64,000 bases of DNA, taken from Arthrobacter sp. YN. Its GTDB lineage: Bacteria > Actinomycetota > Actinomycetes > Actinomycetales > Micrococcaceae. Shown one piece after another: positions 53,234 through 64,000 of this stretch; position 1 is the first letter of the stretch, and the number at the start of each line of letters is the position of its first letter. Position numbers and translations under genes: made by a program. Location of the stretch: the NCBI RefSeq assembly GCF_002224285.1, contig NZ_CP022436.1, positions 1,798,001 to 1,862,000 of the forward strand. The letters run 5' to 3'. Below the pieces are notes generated by a model that made no database searches, was not told the DNA's origin, and worked only from the letters and a program-made list of their open reading frames with translations.

Positions 53234-53242
53234 CACCCTCTG

Positions 53243-53287
53243 TAAAAAGAAATCCCCGGGACCTGATGGTTCCGGGATTTCTTTTTA
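53243..53287 (+). terminator. Terminator after pheT
   Basis: AAAAAGAAATCCC pairs with GGGATTTCTTTTT across a GC-rich inner stem around CCTGATGG, and the T run completes a textbook Rho-independent terminator. Confidence 0.88.
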
Positions 53288-53416
53288 TTGAGATAGGGCT
53301 CCCAGCATCTTGACAGACTATTCACGAATGTATGACAGTTTTGTCATGCACATGTGAAGCATGTGTATCACATCCCTCGCACGGCTCTTCTCTGAGCCGT
53401 CCCTTGAAAGGTACCC

Positions 53417-54283
53417 ATGAAGAAGCAGAACGTTGCTTTGCTTGTTGGAGCTGCAGTGATGGCTTTGACGTCCTCGCTTGGTGGAGCCGCAGTCGCGTCA
53501 GAGTCGACGCCGCAAGTAACCGCCGCCGAGGTCCAGCCTGTATCGCACACCGTGGACAAGTCGCAGGTTTCGGGATCCGCTGCGTCACCGCTGGCCGACA
53601 AGTACACGATTGCCGCACCATCCAAGAACGGAGGCGCCTCCACGGACTCAGTCATCGGCGCTGATGGTCGCGTCCGCATCACCAACACCACGGCGGCGCC
53701 GAACCGCTCCATCGTCCAGATCGAGTTCAACGGCGGCTACATTTGCTCCGGTGCCTTGATTTCCGACGACACCGTGCTGACAGCGGGCCACTGCGTGCAC
53801 GAGGGCGGAACCGGGTCAGCGGCTGATTACTCCTGGGGCGTGAAAGTGGCGCCTGGTCGGAATGGATCGACGGATCCTTACGGTACGTGTGGCGCAACGC
53901 AGCTCTTGACGGACCAGCGCTGGATAGACTCGGCGAACACCAACGCCGACTGGGGCGTCATTAAGCTCGACTGCACCATCGGCAACACCACCGGCTGGCT
54001 CAATTACACCGGCACCACCGCAAGTCTGAATGGCACCAGCACCACGGTCCGTGGCTACCCGGGGGATAAAGCGTTCGGCACCATGTGGTCCATGACTGGT
54101 CCCATTGAGAGCACCACCACCGAGAAGGTCTACTACAAGATGGACACGTACGGCGGCCAAAGCGGCGCCCCCGTTTACAACAGCTCCAACACCATCATGG
54201 CCATCCACACCAACGGCGGCAGCTCCAACTCGGGCACCCGCATCACGCCCACACTGGCGAACTACCTGACGTCGGTAAAATAG
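53417..54283 (+). CDS. Secreted V8-like glutamyl endopeptidase (S1B serine protease)
   Basis: A 288-residue secreted protease. Signal peptide (about 1-28, ending near AVA/SES), a propeptide to about residue 78, then a chymotrypsin-fold domain with the triad H125 (VLTAGHCVH), D178 (NTNADWGVIKL) and S249 (YGGQSGAPVY). The mature start probably is the VIGADGRVRI segment near residue 79. The Gly-rich GGQSGAP context and a preference for glutamate fit the GluSE/V8 family, but specificity is inferred. ATG 53417 follows AAGG. Stands alone; a hairpin follows. Confidence 0.93.
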   Translation: MKKQNVALLVGAAVMALTSSLGGAAVASESTPQVTAAEVQPVSHTVDKSQVSGSAASPLADKYTIAAPSKNGGASTDSVIGADGRVRITNTTAAPNRSIVQIEFNGGYICSGALISDDTVLTAGHCVHEGGTGSAADYSWGVKVAPGRNGSTDPYGTCGATQLLTDQRWIDSANTNADWGVIKLDCTIGNTTGWLNYTGTTASLNGTSTTVRGYPGDKAFGTMWSMTGPIESTTTEKVYYKMDTYGGQSGAPVYNSSNTIMAIHTNGGSSNSGTRITPTLANYLTSVK

Positions 54284-54658
54284 CAGGGTTGAGTTAATCC
54301 GAAGAGGCAGTGTTCCCCGCAGCGTGATCCCGGCTGCGGGGACGCGTGCTTTGGCGGATAGGAGCCCGACAAGTACAAGCAATATTTTGCAGGGGACAAA
54401 GTTCTCTATGGGGTAACGGGTGTGTGGATTGGACCGCGGGGCGACCTTCCCTTGGCTGACCACGTTCTTGGCCTAGGCGCGACCCACCCCTGTTAGTAGC
54501 AAGTACTCCGGCCGAATGTTACGTACCCATCTGATGCACGGTATTGACGGTGATTGGTTACAGCGGGCGACTCCTGTGCCTGAGCCAGGATTGGATCTGC
54601 ATATGGATGGGATCTCGCAGTAGCCTCGGAACACAGGGCCGTTCGGTGACAACCTTTC
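54284..54658. other. 375-nt gap downstream of the protease
   Basis: Contains a hairpin (CCCCGCAGC 54315-54323 pairing with GCTGCGGGG 54333-54341) consistent with a terminator for the protease. No gene or repeat is evident in the rest; the open frames there read as noise. It lies between convergent genes. Confidence 0.5.
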
Positions 54659-55177
54659 CTAGCGGAATTTGCCTTCAGGGTCGGCAAAGCAGCGGGTATT
54701 CCCACCAAGGTTTATTTCGTACTTTCCGGTGGTGAGTCCCATTACGAATTTGTCGGGCCCGAACACGTCGGTGTGTCTGACGAAGTTTGGGCCGCCATCG
54801 GATTCTTGTTTGACGGTGAAGCCGGTGGCCTCGAACAAGGTCTTGACCTTGTCGTGTAGAGCGTCCATTTCTTCCAGGCTCAGCGGACTCCTACTGCTAT
54901 CGAAAGAGACTTTGGTTCCTTCCGTGCCAAGGGGGCGGACACAGACCCCGCCTGGTTTGTCTGGCGTGACTTTCGTCCAGTCGCCGGGGGCGAGGGCTTG
55001 GACTTCCGTGAAGATGTCGAGGTATTCCTTGCGGGCTTGTTCCGGGTCCATGGCCTGCTCCGCGGTGCTGGTAGGTGAATTGGTGCTCGGCGTTGCCGCG
55101 CACCCTGCAAGAGTGAGAAGAATGATTGCCGCGGCGTGAAGGACGCAGCTGCACCGGCGGCGGAGTTTCAGGGGCAT
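54659..55177 (-). CDS. LppA-like lipoprotein, copy 1
   Basis: A 172-residue lipoprotein from ATG 55177. A short basic N-terminus precedes a hydrophobic stretch and a lipobox (LTLAGC), lipid Cys at residue 26. The body has a linker rich in Thr/Ser/Pro, then an alpha/beta domain ending in GGNTRCFADPEGKFR with two late Cys. The last 78 residues differ from copy 2 at only six positions, and the DNA is nearly identical including silent sites, while residues about 55-95 diverge. The pair recalls mycobacterial LppA/LppB, adjacent near-duplicates. Function unknown. Confidence 0.85.
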   Translation of the reverse strand: MPLKLRRRCSCVLHAAAIILLTLAGCAATPSTNSPTSTAEQAMDPEQARKEYLDIFTEVQALAPGDWTKVTPDKPGGVCVRPLGTEGTKVSFDSSRSPLSLEEMDALHDKVKTLFEATGFTVKQESDGGPNFVRHTDVFGPDKFVMGLTTGKYEINLGGNTRCFADPEGKFR

Positions 55178-55184
55178 TGTTCTC

Positions 55185-55706
55185 TTACCGGAATTTGCCT
55201 TCCGGGTCGGGAACGCAGCGGGTATTTCCGCCAAGGTTTATTTCGTACTTTCCGGTGGTGAGCCCCATGACGAATTTGTCGGGCCCGAACACGTCGGTGT
55301 GTCTGACGAAGTTCGGGCCGCCATCGGATTCTTGCTTCACAGTGAACCCCGTGGACACGAAGACAGTTTTTACCTTGTCGTGCAGAGCGTCCATTTCTTC
55401 CCGGCTCAGCGGACTTCGACTGGTATCGATTGAGAATTGGGTACCGTCAGACCCGTCCGGGAGCCGGCAGACATCCCCTTGATATTCGGAGGGTGGCGCG
55501 ACATCCCAGTCGCCGGGGGCGAGGGCTTGAATCTTGTTGAAGAGGTTGAAGTACTCTGTGCGGGCTTGTTCTGGGTCCATGGTTTGCTCCGCGGTGCTGG
55601 TAGGTGGGTTGGTTGCAGGGGTTGTTCCGCACCCTGCAAGGGTGATTAGAAGGATGGCTGCGGCGGGAAGGATGCGCCTGTTAAGGGGGCGGTGCATGGT
55701 TGTCAT
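55185..55706 (-). CDS. LppA-like lipoprotein, copy 2
   Basis: A 173-residue paralogue of the downstream gene, with lipobox LITLAGC and lipid Cys at residue 26 when read from ATG 55706; ATG 55697 would shorten it by three residues. The TSTAEQTMDPEQARTEYFNLF segment and the C-terminal half (FTVKQESDGGPNFVRHTDVF) match copy 1 closely. The start overlaps the stop of the truncated hydrolase (ATGA), and 7 nt separate it from copy 1, so all three are one minus-strand unit. Confidence 0.87.
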   Translation of the reverse strand: MTTMHRPLNRRILPAAAILLITLAGCGTTPATNPPTSTAEQTMDPEQARTEYFNLFNKIQALAPGDWDVAPPSEYQGDVCRLPDGSDGTQFSIDTSRSPLSREEMDALHDKVKTVFVSTGFTVKQESDGGPNFVRHTDVFGPDKFVMGLTTGKYEINLGGNTRCVPDPEGKFR

Positions 55707-56518
55707 CGTGTCGCATTCGTGAGTTGGTCATTCAAGCCGAGGGCGATTCTGGCTTGGTTATAGCTTGACTGGGTTCTCCTGTCGAAGTACCCGTAGATGC
55801 CGTCCTTGCCGCCTGTTTGTCCGTCGTGGGTTTCCGTGGGGTGCTCGACGGCACCATCAGATCCTGTGGTGCCGTCCGTGCCAAAGGTGACAGCGCCGAA
55901 TCCGGGGTCTGCGGTACTCTTACGCTGCCAGCCGAGCCCATGCCCGACCTCAGCTACGTGGTCCCAGTCGTAGGTTCCCCGGTAAACGGTGCCGCCGGGG
56001 TTCAAGTGGAGATCGTTCACGGAGGTCACGTTATCAGGGGCACCAACATCACCGACGAGGACAAGGTTATCGACCGGCAGCTCGGTTTTGGCTGCTTCCA
56101 TGGCCCCGAGGGAACCCATGGAGTGCCCGATAGCTGTTGTCATGGCAGTGTTGTCGAGGTCCTGATGAACGGCGTTCGCCCCTGTCACATAGTTGCCAAG
56201 GGCAGCCCCCACGACTTTTGCATGGTCGTTGCTGAACACACCCATACCCTGGGCCGGCTCAACACCAATCCAGGCAACGACAGCAAGACGGACCCGGTCA
56301 ATCCCATACAGACGAGCGATGTCACGTTGCTCAACTCTTTGATCATTGGCCTGCATGGTCTTTGATGCCATGTCCTTGCCGACGGTGGTGTCCAGCCCGG
56401 GGATCTGAAAGCTGACGTGCTTGGCGGCGTCGAGGTCTCCCACGGAAATAGATGCACCGAACCCGACCACCGCTCTTGCAGCCGCCACCGGGGCTGACGG
56501 TGATGCGATGCAGGGCAT
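55703..56518 (-). pseudogene. 5'-truncated DUF1023-type alpha/beta hydrolase
   Basis: The recognisable part reads ASISVGDLDAAKHVSFQIPG, VAWIGVEP, and the nucleophile elbow IGHSMGSLGAMEA (catalytic Ser), through a C-terminal YGYFDRRTQSSYNQARIALG segment. Family members have a long N-terminal helical (WXG-like) region and the start of the hydrolase domain before this point; here homology begins about residue 60 of the open frame and the sequence upstream is the antisense of a phosphopantetheinyl transferase gene. The ATG at 56518 is only an arbitrary boundary. It heads the hydrolase-lipoprotein-lipoprotein unit. Confidence 0.65.
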
Positions 56519-57104
56519 GTCGCCTCGACGGGCTGCTGATTTCTCCATGGGCAGGCTTTGCGCTCGGACGTCTATCGCGGCGTTGGGTGGCAGCCACGTG
56601 GAACTCGGTCGCTTGCCCAACGGAGCCGTAGACTGGCCTGCTGGTTGGACCGGGAGCATCAGTCACTCGAGAGGCGTGGCCGTAGCATGCGTCGGGAGCT
56701 CTACTCGAGTACGGGCAATCGGTGTGGACGTAGAACCGAATGCTCCTCTACCCAGGGAAACCTCGCGTGCAGTAGCACATGACTGCTTCATTGGAAGGGC
56801 GGCAGGTCTACAGGCGTCGGGCAGCCGCGTGGGCTTTTCGGCTCGAGAATCCGCGTTCAAGGCACTCAGTGCCATCGGTCGTGCAATGCCGATTCTGAGC
56901 ATGACAGTGACAGTCGCGATGGAAACGACCCAGCACGGGCTGTTCACAGTCCATCTCAACGATGACACTAATGTGCCGTTACAAGGCCGGTGGCACGTGG
57001 TCAACTCGATGGTGATGACCACCGTGATTATCGGTGCAGGGGAGCATAACGGCGCAGCGCGGTGGAGAGACAGTGAAGATTCCGCGGCAACTGACAGCCG
57101 GTGA
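56421..57104 (+). CDS. EntD-like 4'-phosphopantetheinyl transferase, start uncertain
   Basis: Transfers phosphopantetheine to carrier proteins. The EntD-type order is visible: RRAADFSMGRLCARTSIAALG, GWTGSISHSRG, the metal-binding GVDVEP, and FSARESAFKAL (usually SAKESVFKA). About 40 residues that normally precede FSMGRLCA are missing or unrecognisable, the first start-like codon after a stop is TTG 56421, and an ATG at 56508 (MQGMSPRR) is an alternative. It overlaps the truncated hydrolase on the other strand, so the gene may have lost its 5' end. Its carrier-protein partner is not nearby. Confidence 0.7.
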   Translation: MAASRSPTEIDAPNPTTALAAATGADGDAMQGMSPRRAADFSMGRLCARTSIAALGGSHVELGRLPNGAVDWPAGWTGSISHSRGVAVACVGSSTRVRAIGVDVEPNAPLPRETSRAVAHDCFIGRAAGLQASGSRVGFSARESAFKALSAIGRAMPILSMTVTVAMETTQHGLFTVHLNDDTNVPLQGRWHVVNSMVMTTVIIGAGEHNGAARWRDSEDSAATDSR

Positions 57105-57120
57105 TTACCCCGGCTGTCAG
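57091..57120. terminator. Bidirectional terminator between PPTase and MarR genes
   Basis: Perfect 11-bp stem CTGACAGCCGG / CCGGCTGTCAG with an 8-nt loop (TGATTACC). It overlaps the stop of the plus-strand gene and lies 12 nt after the MarR stop on the minus strand. Confidence 0.7.
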
Positions 57121-57131
57121 TACTTCAGAGA

Positions 57132-57590
57132 CTACTCAGTGCTCTGAGCAGGCGTGGGATCCAATTTGTAGAAGGAACTCACGGCCTCGAGGTATCGGGC
57201 GACGCTTTCAAGTTCTTCGGGAGAGAATTTTGAACTGAGCGCATCGAATTCATCACTCGTCTTCCCATAGAAATCATGCAGAGGAGCGATGTTCTCTTCC
57301 ACCAGCTCGAGGATAGTTCGCCGGCGATCCGCCGGGTCGGAGGTTCGCCGAACGTATCCGGCGGTTTCGAGTCGGTCGATCAGCTTCGTCACCGTGCTCG
57401 TGGGCATCGTTGTCACTTCGCTGATTTGGCGAGGCGTCCGCACGTCTGGTCGCATGACCAGAAGGTGGAGCGTCTGCAGGTCCGTTACTAGCAGACCGTA
57501 CCGACGGGCTACCCGTTCGTTCCCCAAGATCGCTGTTACCAGTTGCTCCTGGAGGGCCAAACGAACTCGCGCAATCGGATTCTCAGTCAC
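57132..57590 (-). CDS. MarR-family transcriptional regulator
   Basis: A 152-residue regulator. The winged helix is RQISEVTTMPTSTVTKLIDR, followed by LETAGYVRRTSDPADRRRTILEL, a classic MarR wing, with dimerisation helices at both ends. Start GTG 57590. Its own upstream region (57616-57630) contains a sequence similar to the inverted repeat before the nearby NmrA gene (59555-59589), so it may autoregulate and control that operon. Ligand unknown. Confidence 0.88.
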   Translation of the reverse strand: MTENPIARVRLALQEQLVTAILGNERVARRYGLLVTDLQTLHLLVMRPDVRTPRQISEVTTMPTSTVTKLIDRLETAGYVRRTSDPADRRRTILELVEENIAPLHDFYGKTSDEFDALSSKFSPEELESVARYLEAVSSFYKLDPTPAQSTE

Positions 57591-57615
57591 GGGTAGCCTT
57601 TCACACTATTTTCTC

Positions 57616-57630
57616 TTCCGAATCGGGAAA
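57616..57630. promoter_or_regulatory. Putative MarR half-operator
   Basis: On the minus strand it reads TTTCCCGATTCGGAA. It resembles each arm of the inverted repeat at 59555-59589 (TCCCGATTyCGG), lacking one base. It is 26-40 nt upstream of the MarR start codon. Confidence 0.4.
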
Positions 57631-57771
57631 TTCCTTGTTCTGCCCCATTATCACCTTAACGGCGCCTGTGGCACTGCTCTTTAGGGACGGTGGTCTGAGC
57701 ACCTTCGAGCCCACAGGCGGGCTTGGCAAATCAAACGCCCCGAAGCGGTGCTCTGTTCCCGTGACGGACCA

Positions 57772-58500
57772 CTACGTCAGCAGCTCGCGGGGAGTCTTTT
57801 CCCATGGCCAGATGATTGTGATCATGAGGCCAAGTGCAGAATTCCAGATGTATTGCCTCACGCCTTCGGACGCAACATCGCGAACCCGTTCGACACGTCG
57901 CACGAGCGCGTACGAAGCCATCGGGATCAGCAATAGTCCCACAATCAGACCCACCGGGACGCCGAGTATAAGTAGCGACCCCTGTCCCCAGGCGGTGTGG
58001 ATGGGCAGGAAGTCCATGCCCATGAAGCCGACATTGTGCAGGACGAATACGAGGTACCCACCTACGGTGACCAGCAGGATGCGGTTGATTAGAGATGCCG
58101 ATCGGATGCGTTCGGTTGAGAGCACCGCCAGGGCGGCAATGATTGCAGAAAACGCCGCAAACGACAGTTGGAGCATGACCCCTGGCGACACGCCCTCGAA
58201 ATAGGTCACGAATCCGCCGATAAACACACCTTCGAGCATCACGAAGCCGATGATTGATGTGCGTTGAAATCCAGACTGCCGAGCACGCCAGATCGCCAGC
58301 ACGAGAAGGCCGGCAGCCCCTACCATCCACGCTGCTGGAGTTGAACCTTCCAGCGCCTCAGAATTAGTAATCGGCGAGACCGTCCACACGATGCCAATCA
58401 AGGCCGCGGGATGGATCACAATGAACAGAAAGAGTGAAACCCCCAGGGTCCTTGTTGCTACGCGCTTGCCGATCAATCGTGTCTCACGTGTCTGCGTCAT
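57772..58500 (-). CDS. Bax inhibitor-1/YccA-like membrane protein
   Basis: A 242-residue polytopic protein starting at ATG 58500. Seven hydrophobic segments can be counted; the central EGVFIGGFVTYFEGVSPGVML followed by QLSFAAFSAIIAALAVLSTERI and the late FVLHNVGFMGMDFLP resemble the BaxI_1 (YccA-like) family of actinobacteria. The start overlaps the stop of the upstream gene if that gene's frameshift is repaired (ATGA). Third gene of the NmrA operon. Function unknown; family members modulate membrane stress. Confidence 0.72.
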   Translation of the reverse strand: MTQTRETRLIGKRVATRTLGVSLFLFIVIHPAALIGIVWTVSPITNSEALEGSTPAAWMVGAAGLLVLAIWRARQSGFQRTSIIGFVMLEGVFIGGFVTYFEGVSPGVMLQLSFAAFSAIIAALAVLSTERIRSASLINRILLVTVGGYLVFVLHNVGFMGMDFLPIHTAWGQGSLLILGVPVGLIVGLLLIPMASYALVRRVERVRDVASEGVRQYIWNSALGLMITIIWPWEKTPRELLT

Positions 58501-58846
58501 ACCAGCACCGCATTCATGGCATTGGCGAGCACCAGTGCGCTGAGCGGCCAGAAGAGAAGATCCCCGCCGTCTTGCCACTCCGTTGCCGGGTTGCGCCGAT
58601 ACCGAGCAGCGCTGCGATGATGAGAAGGACTATCAGCTTGATCCCGATCTTCAAGTAATTGGGTGTGCCGCTGACTCCCCAAGGAGCAGCGAGCGCGAGT
58701 CCTGTCACGAGTGCCAGGGCCATACCCCACTGCATCAGAGAGGTAATTTCCATCCGTCTGCTCAGTGCTTCGACCAACCAGGGTCCAATCAGCAAAGCGA
58801 ATCCAACCAAGTGCAGAACAATGACGATTCCGCGAATGATCTCCAT
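58497..58846 (-). CDS. Four-helix membrane protein, frameshifted in this sequence
   Basis: From ATG 58846, the frame gives four hydrophobic helices (IVIVLHLVGFALLIGPWLVEAL, MQWGMALALVTGLALAAPWG, YLKIGIKLIVLLIIAALLG) but after RQRSGKTAG it diverges into GIFSSG and stops early at 58514. One extra C in the run 58562-58565 restores a final helix DLLFWPLSALVLANAMNAVLV, ending at TGA 58497, exactly overlapping the next start. The repaired protein is 116 residues. Function not recognised. Confidence 0.68.
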
Positions 58847-58886
58847 ATATCAAATTTCCTTAGATCTTGAATCGTTACGAGCTTGA

Positions 58887-59522
58887 TCAGTTGGCGATGT
58901 AGGCGTGCCTACGATCGAGGTCGTCGCACTCAGCGATATCGATCAGCGCGGTTGCCATGTCAGTGGCAGTGATGAACCATCCTCGCTTGAGCGGCCTTTC
59001 GCTGCTCAGCCGGTACCGGCCTTTCCCCTCAACCGTACGAATGCGAGGAGCTCTGATGGCGGTCCACTGGCAATCGCTCTCCCACAGCACGATGTCCATC
59101 CGGCGCATGTCGTCGTAGGTGGCACCGAGGAACTTCTGGAGGAGAGGCAACGCGATCCAGAGCTTCAGGGCCCCCTGGTGCGCCCAGTGCTCTGCAACCT
59201 CGGATGAGATGACGACTAGTCGGCTGACGCCATGGACGCGCATAGCTTCGAGGAGATTCTTGGTGCCAGCGGAGTACAGCGTTGTTGGTGACTTCGATGA
59301 CCCGGTACCGACCGTGCTGATCACCGCATCTACTCCTTCGAGCAGCGGCGCGACATCTGGTGCATTGAGAATATTTGCGGAGACCTTCGTCAGGGCTGGG
59401 TTCTCGATTGTCAAAGTTTTGGGGTTGCGCGAAACCGCGACTACTTCGTGTCCACGTTCGAGCGCTTGCTCGACGACCTGCTGACCAACAGAGCCCGTCG
59501 CCCCCGGCACTAAGATCCGCAT
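58887..59522 (-). CDS. NAD(P)-binding NmrA-like oxidoreductase
   Basis: A 211-residue atypical SDR. The opening RILVPGATGSVGQQVVEQAL is a Gly-rich nucleotide-binding motif (TGxxGxxG) at residues 4-15; the middle shows VDAVISTVGTGSSK and VSRLVVISSEVAEHW, and the C-terminal part reads TAIRAPRI. Such proteins reduce quinones or act as redox sensors. ATG 59522 has AAAGGAG 8-14 nt upstream, so the longer upstream frame is not used. First gene of an operon preceded by a strong inverted repeat. Confidence 0.87.
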   Translation of the reverse strand: MRILVPGATGSVGQQVVEQALERGHEVVAVSRNPKTLTIENPALTKVSANILNAPDVAPLLEGVDAVISTVGTGSSKSPTTLYSAGTKNLLEAMRVHGVSRLVVISSEVAEHWAHQGALKLWIALPLLQKFLGATYDDMRRMDIVLWESDCQWTAIRAPRIRTVEGKGRYRLSSERPLKRGWFITATDMATALIDIAECDDLDRRHAYIAN

Positions 59523-59554
59523 CCTGTTACTCCTTTCAAGCCATGATATGAAAC

Positions 59555-59589
59555 TAATCCCGATTCCGGAACATCCGAAATCGGGATTA
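59555..59589. promoter_or_regulatory. Inverted-repeat operator upstream of the NmrA operon
   Basis: TAATCCCGATTCCGG (59555-59569), loop AACAT, CCGAAATCGGGATTA (59575-59589): 15-bp arms with one mismatch. It lies 33-67 nt before the NmrA start, where a promoter would be. The neighbouring MarR protein is the likely ligand-responsive binder. Confidence 0.65.
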
Positions 59590-60034
59590 ACTCTAGCACT
59601 GTGCTTTCTTGGGTGTGGAAAGCGAGACCAGCTGCGGCCTGGGCCACTCTTGATCAATCGGACAGTCAGTTTGAGGAGCAGATAGAATTTGCTTGAGGCA
59701 AGCTGCCAATCTGCGAGAGAGCCTGAATGACAAGTCCATATCAACGTGCTTTCGCTGTCGCCGGATCCATTCATCCTCTCGATTACTCGCCTCCGCCGAA
59801 GCTGGCCCGGATTAGAACGCCTGGAGCCCCATCCCCTTTACGGGCGTATTCGGTTGCCAAGGCTTCTTTGCCGAAGCCTGGAGTTGTGGGATCAACTGCG
59901 GACTCCTCCTGGTCCTACGTCCCGCAGCACTGGTCAATCCACAGCGAGGCTGGGCAGCGTGGTACTGATGGCCGAAACGCTATGCGGGATCGTAGCTGCA
60001 CTTGGGCCTGGCTCCGTTGCCCGTGTTGGGAATC
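59590..60034. other. 445-nt region between the NmrA operon and the second PPTase
   Basis: I see no gene with recognisable similarity. A plus-strand frame (ATG 59727 to 60038) is open for about 100 codons, but its composition (many Ser, Arg, Pro, Trp) is unlike a folded protein. The region presumably holds the promoter for the gene at 60035 and perhaps a decayed gene. Confidence 0.4.
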
Positions 60035-60676
60035 GTGACGGATAACCCAGTACTTGAGCTGCTGAAGCTCGACGGGGCGTCGTTTGAGGGCGAAAACCTT
60101 GGGCAACTCGGCCGTCCCGCCTTGGAACGTGCACTTCGCTTTGCCACTGCGGAAGACCGTGAAGACTTCATCGCCGGCCGGCTGGCCTTGCTGGACTTTG
60201 CCGCCTCGCTCCTCGACGTGCCTCCCGATCGCCTCGTCCCTGACTATCACTGCCCGCAGTGCGGCCCCGGCCAGGACCATGGTCGCCCAGGGTTCATGCT
60301 CGACGGCGGCCCCGCACCTCTGGCGCTCAGTGCATCCCGGGCGTCGGGCTGGGTACTACTGGCCGGCGTCGTACATCCAGCGGATGGCCTGCGGCTGGGT
60401 GTGGACCTGGAAGCGATAGGCGGGGTTGGCTTCGAGGGCTTTGACGACGTCGCATTGACCACCAACGAGAAGCGTTTCCTGGCGTCAGTGCCGGAGAGTG
60501 AGCAGACCATACAGCGCGCCCGACTCTGGGCGCGCAAAGAAGCGTGGCTGAAGATGACCGGTGAAGGCCTGCGGAACAACCCTGCAGAGCTGGAAGTGTT
60601 GGACCTGCCCGGCCTGCGCGATGTCACCGAGAGGGAACTGCCTGACGGTCTCGTTGCCGCCTTGGCCCTCGGCTAA
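60035..60676 (+). CDS. Sfp-like 4'-phosphopantetheinyl transferase
   Basis: Activates acyl- or peptidyl-carrier domains. The 213 residues show LGVDLEAIGG (metal-binding Asp and Glu-like) and the signature WARKEAWLKMTGEGL (about 170-184), both PPTase landmarks; the first half with FATAEDREDFIAGRLALLDFAA gives the family's opening helices. Start GTG 60035 (MTDNPVLELL) is preferred; a TTG 33 nt earlier is possible. It is next to the carrier-domain synthetase at 62029-64000 and converges with the aminopeptidase, making it the likely activator of that synthetase. Confidence 0.88.
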   Translation: MTDNPVLELLKLDGASFEGENLGQLGRPALERALRFATAEDREDFIAGRLALLDFAASLLDVPPDRLVPDYHCPQCGPGQDHGRPGFMLDGGPAPLALSASRASGWVLLAGVVHPADGLRLGVDLEAIGGVGFEGFDDVALTTNEKRFLASVPESEQTIQRARLWARKEAWLKMTGEGLRNNPAELEVLDLPGLRDVTERELPDGLVAALALG

Positions 60677-62016
60677 CGCGCTGAAGGCAGCGGCGGAAGC
60701 GCAGCCTCGTAGAGCCATGGCCGGAGAATCGACGCAGCATCAAAGCCCGGAATGTACGAATCCGCGGCCTCAATGAACGCGTCCGTGGACACCGAGCTGT
60801 GCCTGTTGCTGGCAGTCCAATGCTGTAGGAAGCTGAAGAACGCCTCGTTGCCGGCCGCGATTCGTACGGCATGGACAGCCAGCGCGCCGCGCTTGTAGAC
60901 GCGGTCATCGAACATCAGCTCAGGGCCGGGGTCTCCGACCAGCAGGTCCTGCGGCCCGGCGTCGAGCCTCTTCCATGCGGCCGTTGCCCGCGCAGCAACT
61001 GTCATGGTCCTTGATTCTTCGGACCACAACCATTCCGCGTAGCAAGCGAATCCCTCATGAAGCCAGATGTCTTTCCAGCTGCTCACGGTCAGCGAGTTGC
61101 CGAACCACTGGTGGGAGAGCTCGTGGGCGATCAGGCGCTGGGCGTCCCAGGACTCGCGCATGTGGTTTCGGCCGAAGATGGAGACTGTCTGGGCTTCCAA
61201 CGGAATTTCCAGTTCGTCTTCAGTGACCACCGAGGTGTAATCCGTGAACGGATACGGGCCGAAGCAATCCTCGAAGGTGCGCATCATGTCGGGCTGGCGG
61301 CGCAGGCCTTGCAGAGCATCCACCGCCATCTCGGGCGTGACTGCCACGAACTGCGGCACCCGGTGATGGGTGTCGTCAACGTGCAGGGGAACCCTGACGT
61401 ACCGACCGATCTGCACGGTTGCGAGGTAGGTGGCCATGGGTTCAGCGTGTTCGTAGACCCAGGTCTCCCTGCTCGACTTGCGGGAGTGGGAGATCAACGT
61501 GCCGTTGCACACCGGCCGGTAGTTGTCGTCGGTGGTAACGGAGATGAGGAAGCTGGACTTGTAGCGGGGATGGTCATTGCAGGGGAACCAAGAGGCCGCA
61601 CCGTTGGGCTGGCCGGCCACCAAGACGCCGTCGTTCAGTTCTTCCCACCCCACATCGCCCCACAGGCCGCGGCGCGGCTGGGGGTTGCCGTCGTAGCGGA
61701 TCTCCAAGGAGAACTGCTGGCCGGGCCTCAGCGGCGCCGCCGGGTTGAGCACAAGGTGTTCGGCCCTGTGGCTGAACTTCTGGAGCTTCTTGCCATCCAG
61801 TTGGACCTTGCTGGCCCGCAGGCCCACCAGGTCCAAAACAATCTGAGCCGTAGTTGCCAACGCCGTGCACCGCAGGACCGCTTTGCCGATCAACTTGTTG
61901 CTGCCCAGCCTGACGTCGAGATCCAACTCGTACCGGTCCACACGATAGCTGGTGCTGCCGTGGTCCAGAGTATAGGGGTCCGCTTCGGTCATGGGGGCGG
62001 TGATTGGTACGGTCAT
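60673..62016 (-). CDS. M1-family zinc aminopeptidase
   Basis: A 447-residue gluzincin. The zinc site is H298-E299-x-x-H302 (IAHELSHQWFG) with the third ligand E321 in DIWLHEGFACY, a spacing of HExxH-x18-E as in M1. The exopeptidase GAMEN loop is replaced by EIPLEAQTVSIFG. The usual large C-terminal helical domain is short or absent, as in small actinobacterial M1 enzymes. It lies 12 nt downstream of the Pls/PosA gene on the same strand. Aminopeptidases next to poly-lysine synthetases are known to degrade the polymer; that role is inferred here. Confidence 0.92.
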   Translation of the reverse strand: MTVPITAPMTEADPYTLDHGSTSYRVDRYELDLDVRLGSNKLIGKAVLRCTALATTAQIVLDLVGLRASKVQLDGKKLQKFSHRAEHLVLNPAAPLRPGQQFSLEIRYDGNPQPRRGLWGDVGWEELNDGVLVAGQPNGAASWFPCNDHPRYKSSFLISVTTDDNYRPVCNGTLISHSRKSSRETWVYEHAEPMATYLATVQIGRYVRVPLHVDDTHHRVPQFVAVTPEMAVDALQGLRRQPDMMRTFEDCFGPYPFTDYTSVVTEDELEIPLEAQTVSIFGRNHMRESWDAQRLIAHELSHQWFGNSLTVSSWKDIWLHEGFACYAEWLWSEESRTMTVAARATAAWKRLDAGPQDLLVGDPGPELMFDDRVYKRGALAVHAVRIAAGNEAFFSFLQHWTASNRHSSVSTDAFIEAADSYIPGFDAASILRPWLYEAALPPLPSAR

Positions 62017-62028
62017 GATCCGTCCAAT

Positions 62029-64000
62029 CTACTTGAGGCGCGGCGCTTGTGCTGACGGACCCACCCACGGGCTCACCGGGTTGCCCATCCAGTACGTTCC
62101 GGCCGGCACTGTCTCACCCCGCATAACCAACGACGCCGGACCAACAGTTCCGCCGTCGCCGATGCTGGCCGCGGGGAGGATGACGCCGTGCGGACCCATG
62201 GTGGCTCCGTTACCGAGCATCACGGTGTCCAGGCTCATCACGCGGTCGTGGAACAGGTGCGTTTGGACAACGCAGCCACGGTTGACGGTGGAATTCTCAC
62301 CGAGCGTTACCAGGTCAGCTTCGGGCAGCCAGTAGCTTTCACACCAGGTCCCGCGGCCGATCTTCGCTCCGAGGCCGCGAAGCCACCACACCAAGGCGGG
62401 GGTTCCGGCGGCGGAGCGGGCAAACCACGGGGCGCTCACCATCTCGATAAAGGTGTCCACTACCTCGTTGCGCCAAATGAACGAGCTCCACAAGGGGTGT
62501 TCGCCCGCGCGGATGGTCCCCACCAAGGCCCACTTGGCCACGATGGAGCTCAATGCGGCCACGGCACCTGCTGCCAGCATCACGACACCACCGAGGACGG
62601 CTGCCATCCAGTAGCCCCATCCACTCGCGATCCAATCCAGAACCAGCATGACGCTGACGGCGATGGTGACGGTCAGGATGACAGGCACCAGCCGGCACAG
62701 TTCCCACAATGCCCGGGCAACCTTGAGCCTGCGGGGCGGCTGGAAGGTCCGGGTTTGGTCAGCGGCGACGGCAGTGCGGCGCAGCCTGACCGGCGGGCTG
62801 CCCAACCAGGACGTGCCGGATTTGGCTTTCGCCGGCGTGGCAGACAGTACTGCAACGAGCGAGTTCTTGGGAACGTTTCGCCCCGCAGCAGTCATGCCCG
62901 AGTTGCCCAGGAAGGAGCGCTTTCCTATTTTGGCCGGAGCAATCTTCATCCAGCCCCCACCGAGTTCGTAGGAGGCCACCATGGTGTCGTCAGCCAGGAA
63001 GGCTCCGTCGCCAATGGTGGTCATTTTCGGAACCAGCAGGACGGTTGAGGCTTCCACGTTTTTCCCGACCTTGGCGCCCAGAAGGCGCAGCCAGATCGGT
63101 GTGAAGAGGCTTGCGTAGACCGGGAAAAGGAGGTCCCGGGCCATATCCAGAAGGCGTTCCGTGGCCCAAACCTGCCACCCAACACGGCTGCGGACCCCGT
63201 AGTAACCCTCCTTCAGGCCCAACCCGAGGAGCCGGGCAACTATCAGGATGAGCACCAGGTTGCCGAAGAACCACACCAGAGCCGCAAGAGGCAATGCCAG
63301 AGCTATTTGAGGAAGGGCAGTTTCCAGGGATTCGTGGCCCTGCATGAAAGCCAGGACAACCAAGGCCCCTGCGAACGCAGAGATGTAAGGGATGAGGGCC
63401 AGGAGGGCCGAAGCGCTGGCAAAAGCGGAGAACCACAGACGGTCGACCACTGGACGCCGGCCGCTGGGCCCAGGCCATTCGTGCTTTGCTTTTCCGCGGC
63501 GCTCGGCGGGGGAGCCGGCAACGAGGTGCCCGGCCTTCACTTTGCCCAGTACAGCCGATCCGGCTTCGACGCGCGCACCCGCACCGATGGTGGCCCCTGG
63601 CATCAGTGTGCTTCGGGCGCCGACGACTGCGCCGGCTCCCACATGGATCTGACCGATATGGACGGAGTCACCATCTACCCACCATCCGGAAAGGTCCACC
63701 TCGGGCTCGATGTTGGCTCCGCTACCCAGGGACAGCAAGCCGGTGACAGGAGGCAAGGAGTGAAGGTGAACGTCCCGGCCGATCTTGGCTCCAAGCGCGC
63801 GGGCGTAGTACGGGACGAACGGTGCGCTGGCCAAGCCAATGGCACCCGAAAGATCCTGGATTTGTTCAGCAAGCCATAAACGCAGGTGGGTCTTTCCGGA
63901 ACGCGGGTAGGTGCCGGGTTTGATCCTGCCAAGCAGCACCCTGGCTGCAGCCACCGAGATCGCCATCCGGCCCAAGGGGCTGACGAAGACCAGCCACGAT
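62029..64000 (-). CDS. Pls/PosA-type nonribosomal peptide synthetase, C-terminal part (5' partial)
   Basis: The last 656 or more residues of a large synthetase that continues past the right edge (frame open: SWLVFVSPLGRMAISVAA). Three hexapeptide left-handed beta-helix domains alternate with pairs of membrane helices: ALGAKIGRDVHLH with PGATIGAGARVEAGS; then LLGAKVGKNVEAS with GDGAFLADDTMVASYE; then GLGAKIGRGTW with GNGATMGPHGVILP. Membrane segments fall between them (for example LLALIPYISAFAGALVVLAF and AVSVMLVLDWIAS). This six-helix, three-domain C-terminus is the hallmark of poly-epsilon-lysine synthetase (Pls) and related enzymes, where it chains the amino acid into a homopolymer. The adenylation and carrier domains lie upstream, outside the window. 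Confidence 0.9.
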   Translation of the reverse strand, partial: SWLVFVSPLGRMAISVAAARVLLGRIKPGTYPRSGKTHLRLWLAEQIQDLSGAIGLASAPFVPYYARALGAKIGRDVHLHSLPPVTGLLSLGSGANIEPEVDLSGWWVDGDSVHIGQIHVGAGAVVGARSTLMPGATIGAGARVEAGSAVLGKVKAGHLVAGSPAERRGKAKHEWPGPSGRRPVVDRLWFSAFASASALLALIPYISAFAGALVVLAFMQGHESLETALPQIALALPLAALVWFFGNLVLILIVARLLGLGLKEGYYGVRSRVGWQVWATERLLDMARDLLFPVYASLFTPIWLRLLGAKVGKNVEASTVLLVPKMTTIGDGAFLADDTMVASYELGGGWMKIAPAKIGKRSFLGNSGMTAAGRNVPKNSLVAVLSATPAKAKSGTSWLGSPPVRLRRTAVAADQTRTFQPPRRLKVARALWELCRLVPVILTVTIAVSVMLVLDWIASGWGYWMAAVLGGVVMLAAGAVAALSSIVAKWALVGTIRAGEHPLWSSFIWRNEVVDTFIEMVSAPWFARSAAGTPALVWWLRGLGAKIGRGTWCESYWLPEADLVTLGENSTVNRGCVVQTHLFHDRVMSLDTVMLGNGATMGPHGVILPAASIGDGGTVGPASLVMRGETVPAGTYWMGNPVSPWVGPSAQAPRLK

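Follow-up and report, generated by a model that had tools for sequence, protein, structure and literature searches.

What do a carrier-domain synthetase, a zinc peptidase and a phosphopantetheinyl transferase (PPTase) do together at the edge of a 64,000-nucleotide stretch of Arthrobacter sp. YN DNA? This stretch, called the window here, covers G000:C1 1798001-1862000 of a single-contig genome of 5.06 Mb. A preliminary description made from the letters alone had recognised at its right-hand end the C-terminal part of a Pls-type synthetase, a zinc M1 aminopeptidase 12 nt downstream and a convergent Sfp-like PPTase; it suggested a small cationic polymer system and left the amino acid open. The specificity pocket of the synthetase, the layout of the locus and the co-inheritance of its genes support that suggestion. 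We consider it probable, at roughly 0.87, that the locus is a three-gene cassette that makes and hydrolyses epsilon-poly-L-lysine.

A synthetase that most likely uses lysine

The window holds only the 3′ part of pls (62029-63999, minus strand), which encodes residues 673-1328 with three beta-helix-like stretches and five of the six membrane regions. The remainder, with the adenylation domain, the carrier domain and the first membrane region, lies beyond the window edge at G000:C1 1862001-1864015 (minus strand), and the complete frame (G000:C1 1860029-1864015, minus strand; genome stretch L005) encodes one protein of 1328 aa. Pfam and NCBIfam scans place the adenylation domain at residues 49-374, the carrier domain at 535-596 and the Pls/PosA terminal domain TIGR02353 at 626-1314. 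Both upstream domains on which the earlier assignment depended are therefore present. TIGR02353 scores 704 bits (cut-off 423), and this protein is the sole match over the cut-off in its own genome. At E 0.001, Pfam recognised neither a condensation nor a thioesterase domain in it. Hydropathy, a predicted model and structural matches agree on six membrane helices and three beta-helix domains, the ranges of the structural matches testing mostly the first beta-helix and those of VIA-align lying largely within residues 21-175 of the modelled C-terminal part.

The adenylation region (residues 35-517) aligns with the solved S. albulus epsilon-poly-L-lysine synthase 7wew at 660 bits and 67% identity. 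The computed letters at the ten positions of the specificity pocket, placed by the usual motifs, read DAESIGTVVK and are identical to those of 7wew, so that the window’s synthetase shares both layout and pocket with the S. albulus enzyme. The same ten letters stand in 110 of 110 further loci compared, comprising 30 of the genus (the window’s own included) and 80 named loci that were retrieved by the patterns ASCEEMW or GAAYVPVD and are thus biased toward this pocket. The carrier serine is present in all 111 aligned rows.

One alternative concerns the monomer. PosA of Acinetobacter baumannii, the delta-poly-L-ornithine synthetase, belongs to the same family, and its authors’ model, like the model of the window’s protein, has three beta-helices over a membrane bundle; its gene forms a single-gene operon and its pocket reads DMEHNGTVSK, against DAESIGTVVK and a pls-M1 pair in the window (PMC10522769). 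Moreover, genes read by eye as argC, argJ, argB, argD and argF are situated some 2.4-8 kb upstream of pls and could supply ornithine to a delta-poly-ornithine synthetase, or the product could be a polymer of another diamino acid. However, the PosA report describes the Met at pocket position 2 as limiting the pocket, and exchange to Ala (M218A) raised lysine activity nearly 10-fold (PMC10522769). Since position 2 is Ala in the window’s protein, as in lysine enzymes, and all ten letters equal those of Pls, lysine is the expected monomer. The order pheT, quinone oxidoreductase (QOR), argC also persists in genomes without the cassette, so the arg genes appear to be neighbours by synteny. A poly-ornithine product, which we regard as very improbable, was rejected on these two grounds. 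The synthetase is most likely an epsilon-poly-L-lysine synthetase, and its specificity code, which the preliminary description had asked to be read, thereby points to lysine as the amino acid left open.

Other synthetases occur in congeners. Thirteen of 17 distant rows (30-38% identity) were fetched (L122-L134); their frames span about 1380-1510 codons, and all 13 carry the pocket DFECLSVVTK, in which Phe at position 2 recalls the poly-diaminopropionate synthetase as described in PMC10522769. A third type (L119-L121; three of four rows at 49-52% fetched) is about 50% identical to the window’s Pls and has the pocket DAESIGTVIK. These 13 and three synthetases serve as a control, and no M1 match was found in their loci.

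The three genes are inherited together

We surveyed 121 congener genomes sampled from the larger genus, with thresholds of E 1e-60 for pls, E 1e-20 for M1 and E 1e-6 for the PPTase. Each gene is found in 100 of them, and the three sets are identical. These tallies count the best row per genome and omit weaker copies (M1 at 33-40% identity; PPTase matches with E above 1e-14, G092 excepted), which leaves the equal sets untouched and second copies uncounted. M1 directly follows pls in 97 of the 100 pls-bearing genomes, and the PPTase adjoins M1 in 92, convergently in 90; the neighbours are thus conserved in relatives, as the earlier assignment required.

At the 20 readable sites among the 21 genomes that lack the cassette, no match to pls, M1 or the PPTase is found and the order is pheT, then QOR and argC. 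The spacing between pheT and QOR is 0.15-0.24 kb in 16 of these sites, and 0.9-1.7 kb of other DNA stands there in four (L143, L148, L151, L154). In the remaining genome, G118 (63% complete), the site falls at a contig end and is unreadable, and absence of the three genes is known by elimination. In five of the pls-bearing genomes (G009, G016, G021, G049, G062) the canonical site is without a match and the genes lie in other places. Mapped on a pheT tree built from 61 of the 121 genomes (the 21 lacking and 40 with the cassette), the observed distribution takes a minimum of 11 gains or losses, and well supported branches force eight of them.

Beyond the genus, M1 is held in 74 of the 80 named actinobacterial loci and stands directly behind pls in 73. 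Two of the six loci without it (L038, L089) end at or inside pls; the other four (L039, L049, L092, L113) do not. The Kitasatospora loci L039 and L049 have a lysine-pocket Pls and no same-strand M1 match within about 6.5 kb downstream. Chance neighbourhood of the three genes was rejected on the conserved order, the joint absence, the pheT tree and the named loci. The upstream QOR was likewise rejected as a cassette member; it stays in all 20 lacking genomes read.

A PPTase that looks dedicated to Pls

The PPTase gene (60002..60676, plus strand) is convergent with M1 and encodes an Sfp/HetI-type 4′-phosphopantetheinyl transferase of about 220 aa. The start at 60002 is provisional, the preliminary description having chosen 60035. 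PF01648 (ACPS superfamily) matches at 41.7 bits against a cut-off of 25, in keeping with an Sfp-type enzyme, and the HetI model of NCBIfam matches far below its cut-off.

A general PPTase that merely sits beside pls would explain why, in eight of the 100 pls-bearing genomes, a PPTase match is present away from M1, and the further carrier-type synthetases of some genomes would need such an enzyme too. However, the 21 genomes without pls yield no match to this PPTase at E 1e-6, and 19 of them have a single ACPS-family match (G100 has two, and the 63% complete G118 none). At least two ACPS-family matches are present in 99 of the 100 pls-bearing genomes; G027 (68% complete) has one. PPTases also stand in the pls loci of nine of 14 Micrococcales and one of two Propionibacteriales, and in none of the 64 others, as counted with a profile built from the window’s PPTase and eight of the loci’s own. 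The 64 include all 14 Kitasatosporales loci, in contrast to the window, where the PPTase adjoins the cassette. A general role therefore seems improbable. With just one ACPS-family gene in 19 of the 21 genomes without the cassette, the PPTase looks dedicated to Pls, and a foreign host may need such an enzyme to use a Micrococcales Pls.

A second PPTase gene in the window (56421-57104, plus strand), EntD/PptT-like (PF17837; NF050105 below its cut-off), was tried as the partner enzyme. It is an unlikely one, because its family is rare in the genus (five of 121 genomes, four over the cut-off) whereas the adjacent PPTase tracks pls.

An M1 peptidase predicted to be cytosolic

The M1 gene (60673..62016, minus strand) is separated from the pls stop by 12 nt (62017..62028, minus strand) and encodes a two-domain zinc aminopeptidase of 447 aa (PF17900 and PF01433). 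Its HExxH zinc motif (residues 298-302) lies at 61111..61125 and its third ligand, E321, at 61054-61056, both on the minus strand. Residues H298, E299, H302, E321, E274 and Y374 are the same in all 105 aligned rows, two of which are the window’s own gene. The fold is that of the two-domain M1 metallopeptidase of Deinococcus radiodurans (6a8z, 6ifg; TM-score 0.86-0.88 by query length, 29-30% identity).

A zinc aminopeptidase that trims the polymer and is encoded near pls in producers, which the preliminary description had invoked, is indeed in print (PMC9223678, PMC4361855, PMC8117764). In the S. albulus-like locus L036, whose adenylation domain is 93% identical to that of 7wew, the gene directly after pls is of the M1 family, matching the printed position of pldII (PMC4361855), and its start codon overlaps the pls stop in the letters GTGA. 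The window’s M1 is 40% identical to this protein. Given the pldII-like overlap and the family of the L036 gene, PldII and the window’s M1 very likely represent one kind of enzyme. The printed overlap is 4 nt (PMC4361855), as against the 12-nt gap in the window. An exact 4-nt overlap of pls and M1 occurs in 44 of 118 loci, counted with M1 beginning at the first start codon at most 14 nt before the pls stop, a rule that favours short distances.

The two enzymes appear to differ at their N-termini. Starts like those of twin-arginine translocation (Tat) substrates, read by a consensus motif, precede a hydrophobic stretch on the M1 of all five S. albulus-type loci (L036, L037, L208, L209, L210) and are found on none of the 140 other loci, the window’s included; one of these, L206, is weakly hydrophobic. 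The S. albulus type was defined as Pls at least 70% identical to that of L036, a line drawn after the data had been seen. The comparison began with 153 loci and came to 145 after removal of six without M1 and two (L116, L118) without a Pls identity, neither of which is Tat-like; L203, which coincides with L006, had been excluded from the start, and some genomes may be counted twice, as named and unnamed loci.

S. albulus PldII is reported to sit on the outer side of the membrane, with a role described as self-protective (PMC9223678; review PMC9205021). The window’s M1 could protect the cell in the same way if it were exported by a route invisible in sequence, and its catalytic core is homologous to that of the L036 enzyme. 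We consider this unlikely, given the distribution of the Tat-like starts and the short N-terminus: 12 residues precede the core, and because the frame is open for only 451 codons in all, no longer N-terminus with a hidden signal fits. The enzyme is thus predicted to be cytosolic. Since no export signal is recognisable on it, we call it a PldII counterpart rather than PldII, and a role outside the cell, on this prediction, should not be assumed. The missing signal suggests, as the simplest mechanism, an intracellular role in polymer turnover or as a guard, in contrast to the external protection ascribed to PldII; a secreted product of this type of locus is possible. With a Tat-like start in none of the 140 other-type loci, the characterised PldII looks like the exception.

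A proposed mechanism and its wider reading

In the mechanism that we propose, the PPTase would attach the phosphopantetheine arm to Ser563 in the carrier domain of Pls, and the adenylation domain would activate L-lysine and load the carrier. The membrane-embedded beta-helix domain would then link lysines one by one via their epsilon-amines. M1, probably made from the same transcript as pls, would hydrolyse the polymer; as a cytosolic enzyme, which is a prediction, it would act on internal polymer for turnover, for salvage or as a guard against build-up.

Several points weigh against the three-gene cassette. The equal gene sets rest on the PPTase threshold of E 1e-6, and in G002, G009, G021 and G092 the PPTase match is divergent (36-39% identity); to these are added the eight genomes noted above whose PPTase is not beside M1. 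Three genomes (G018, G073, G095) have kept M1 and the PPTase at the site with the resident pls gone, of which G095 retains a fragment of about 95 aa, and each has at another place a Pls of 49-51% identity. A single deletion can remove linked genes at once, and their shared absence does not alone prove that they work together. With regard to export, neither Pfam nor NCBIfam recognised a Tat domain in the five M1 proteins with a Tat-like start, and these loci form one clade, hence one evolutionary event. Finally, Corynebacterium variabile has a similar operon and gave no epsilon-poly-L-lysine natively, and C. glutamicum expressing its Pls made none either (PMC8117764).

A broader proposal is tentative, and we think it more likely wrong than right. 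Outside the S. albulus-type Streptomyces, these loci would encode a closed cytosolic cycle of lysine polymerisation and release and not a secreted antibiotic system; the Micrococcales cycle would carry its own PPTase and be moved and lost as a unit, and Tat-type export of the peptidase would be a change that accompanied secretion. Such a cycle could serve as a store of charge or nitrogen, or provide a regulated internal polycation. It would fit the report that C. variabile Pls gave epsilon-poly-L-lysine in S. coelicolor, which is without pls, and no polymer in C. glutamicum (PMC8117764). However, the C. variabile Pls protein was undetected (PMC8117764), which explains the silence without a peptidase, and removal of both degraders did not lead S. 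albulus to make polymer at neutral pH (PMC9205021). On these two results the missing polymer need not come from a peptidase. The authors of the C. variabile study consider regulation as a reason for the silence (PMC8117764). What poly-lysine does naturally in pls carriers that are not known as producers can now be asked by removal of single genes.

Parts of this picture are already published. The occurrence of Pls and a peptidase gene in one operon in coryneforms, as probably also in the window, and the naming of Arthrobacter among genera with Pls homologues are due to Jiang et al. (2021; PMC8117764), and loci of this sort fall under the antiSMASH class of non-alpha poly-amino acids (NAPAA), to which epsilon-polylysine belongs (PMC11078813, PMC11078359). 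The locus is ordinary for its kind. The open-licence literature searched yielded no report of the all-or-none cassette of pls, M1 and PPTase, of the apparently dedicated PPTase or of the contrast in export. The main text of PMC8117764 contains none of ‘phosphopantethein’, ‘PPTase’, ‘localiz’ and ‘cytoplasm’, and so leaves the PPTase and the peptidase’s location untreated there.

Neighbouring genes

The names pheT, QOR, DES (desaturase) and arg were assigned by eye from translations, without a family search. In the window, about 6.8 kb (53234-60001) separate pheT from the PPTase gene. In congeners, the matched parts of these two genes can be 74 nt (G012) or 3 kb (G067) apart; given these shorter distances, much of the interval may be strain-specific. 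It contains two neighbouring, similar lipoprotein-like genes (54659-55234 and 55185-55706, both minus strand) that by eye appear to be a tandem duplication, and a PF06259 alpha/beta hydrolase gene (55703-56659, minus strand) that overlaps the EntD-like PPTase frame on the opposite strand.

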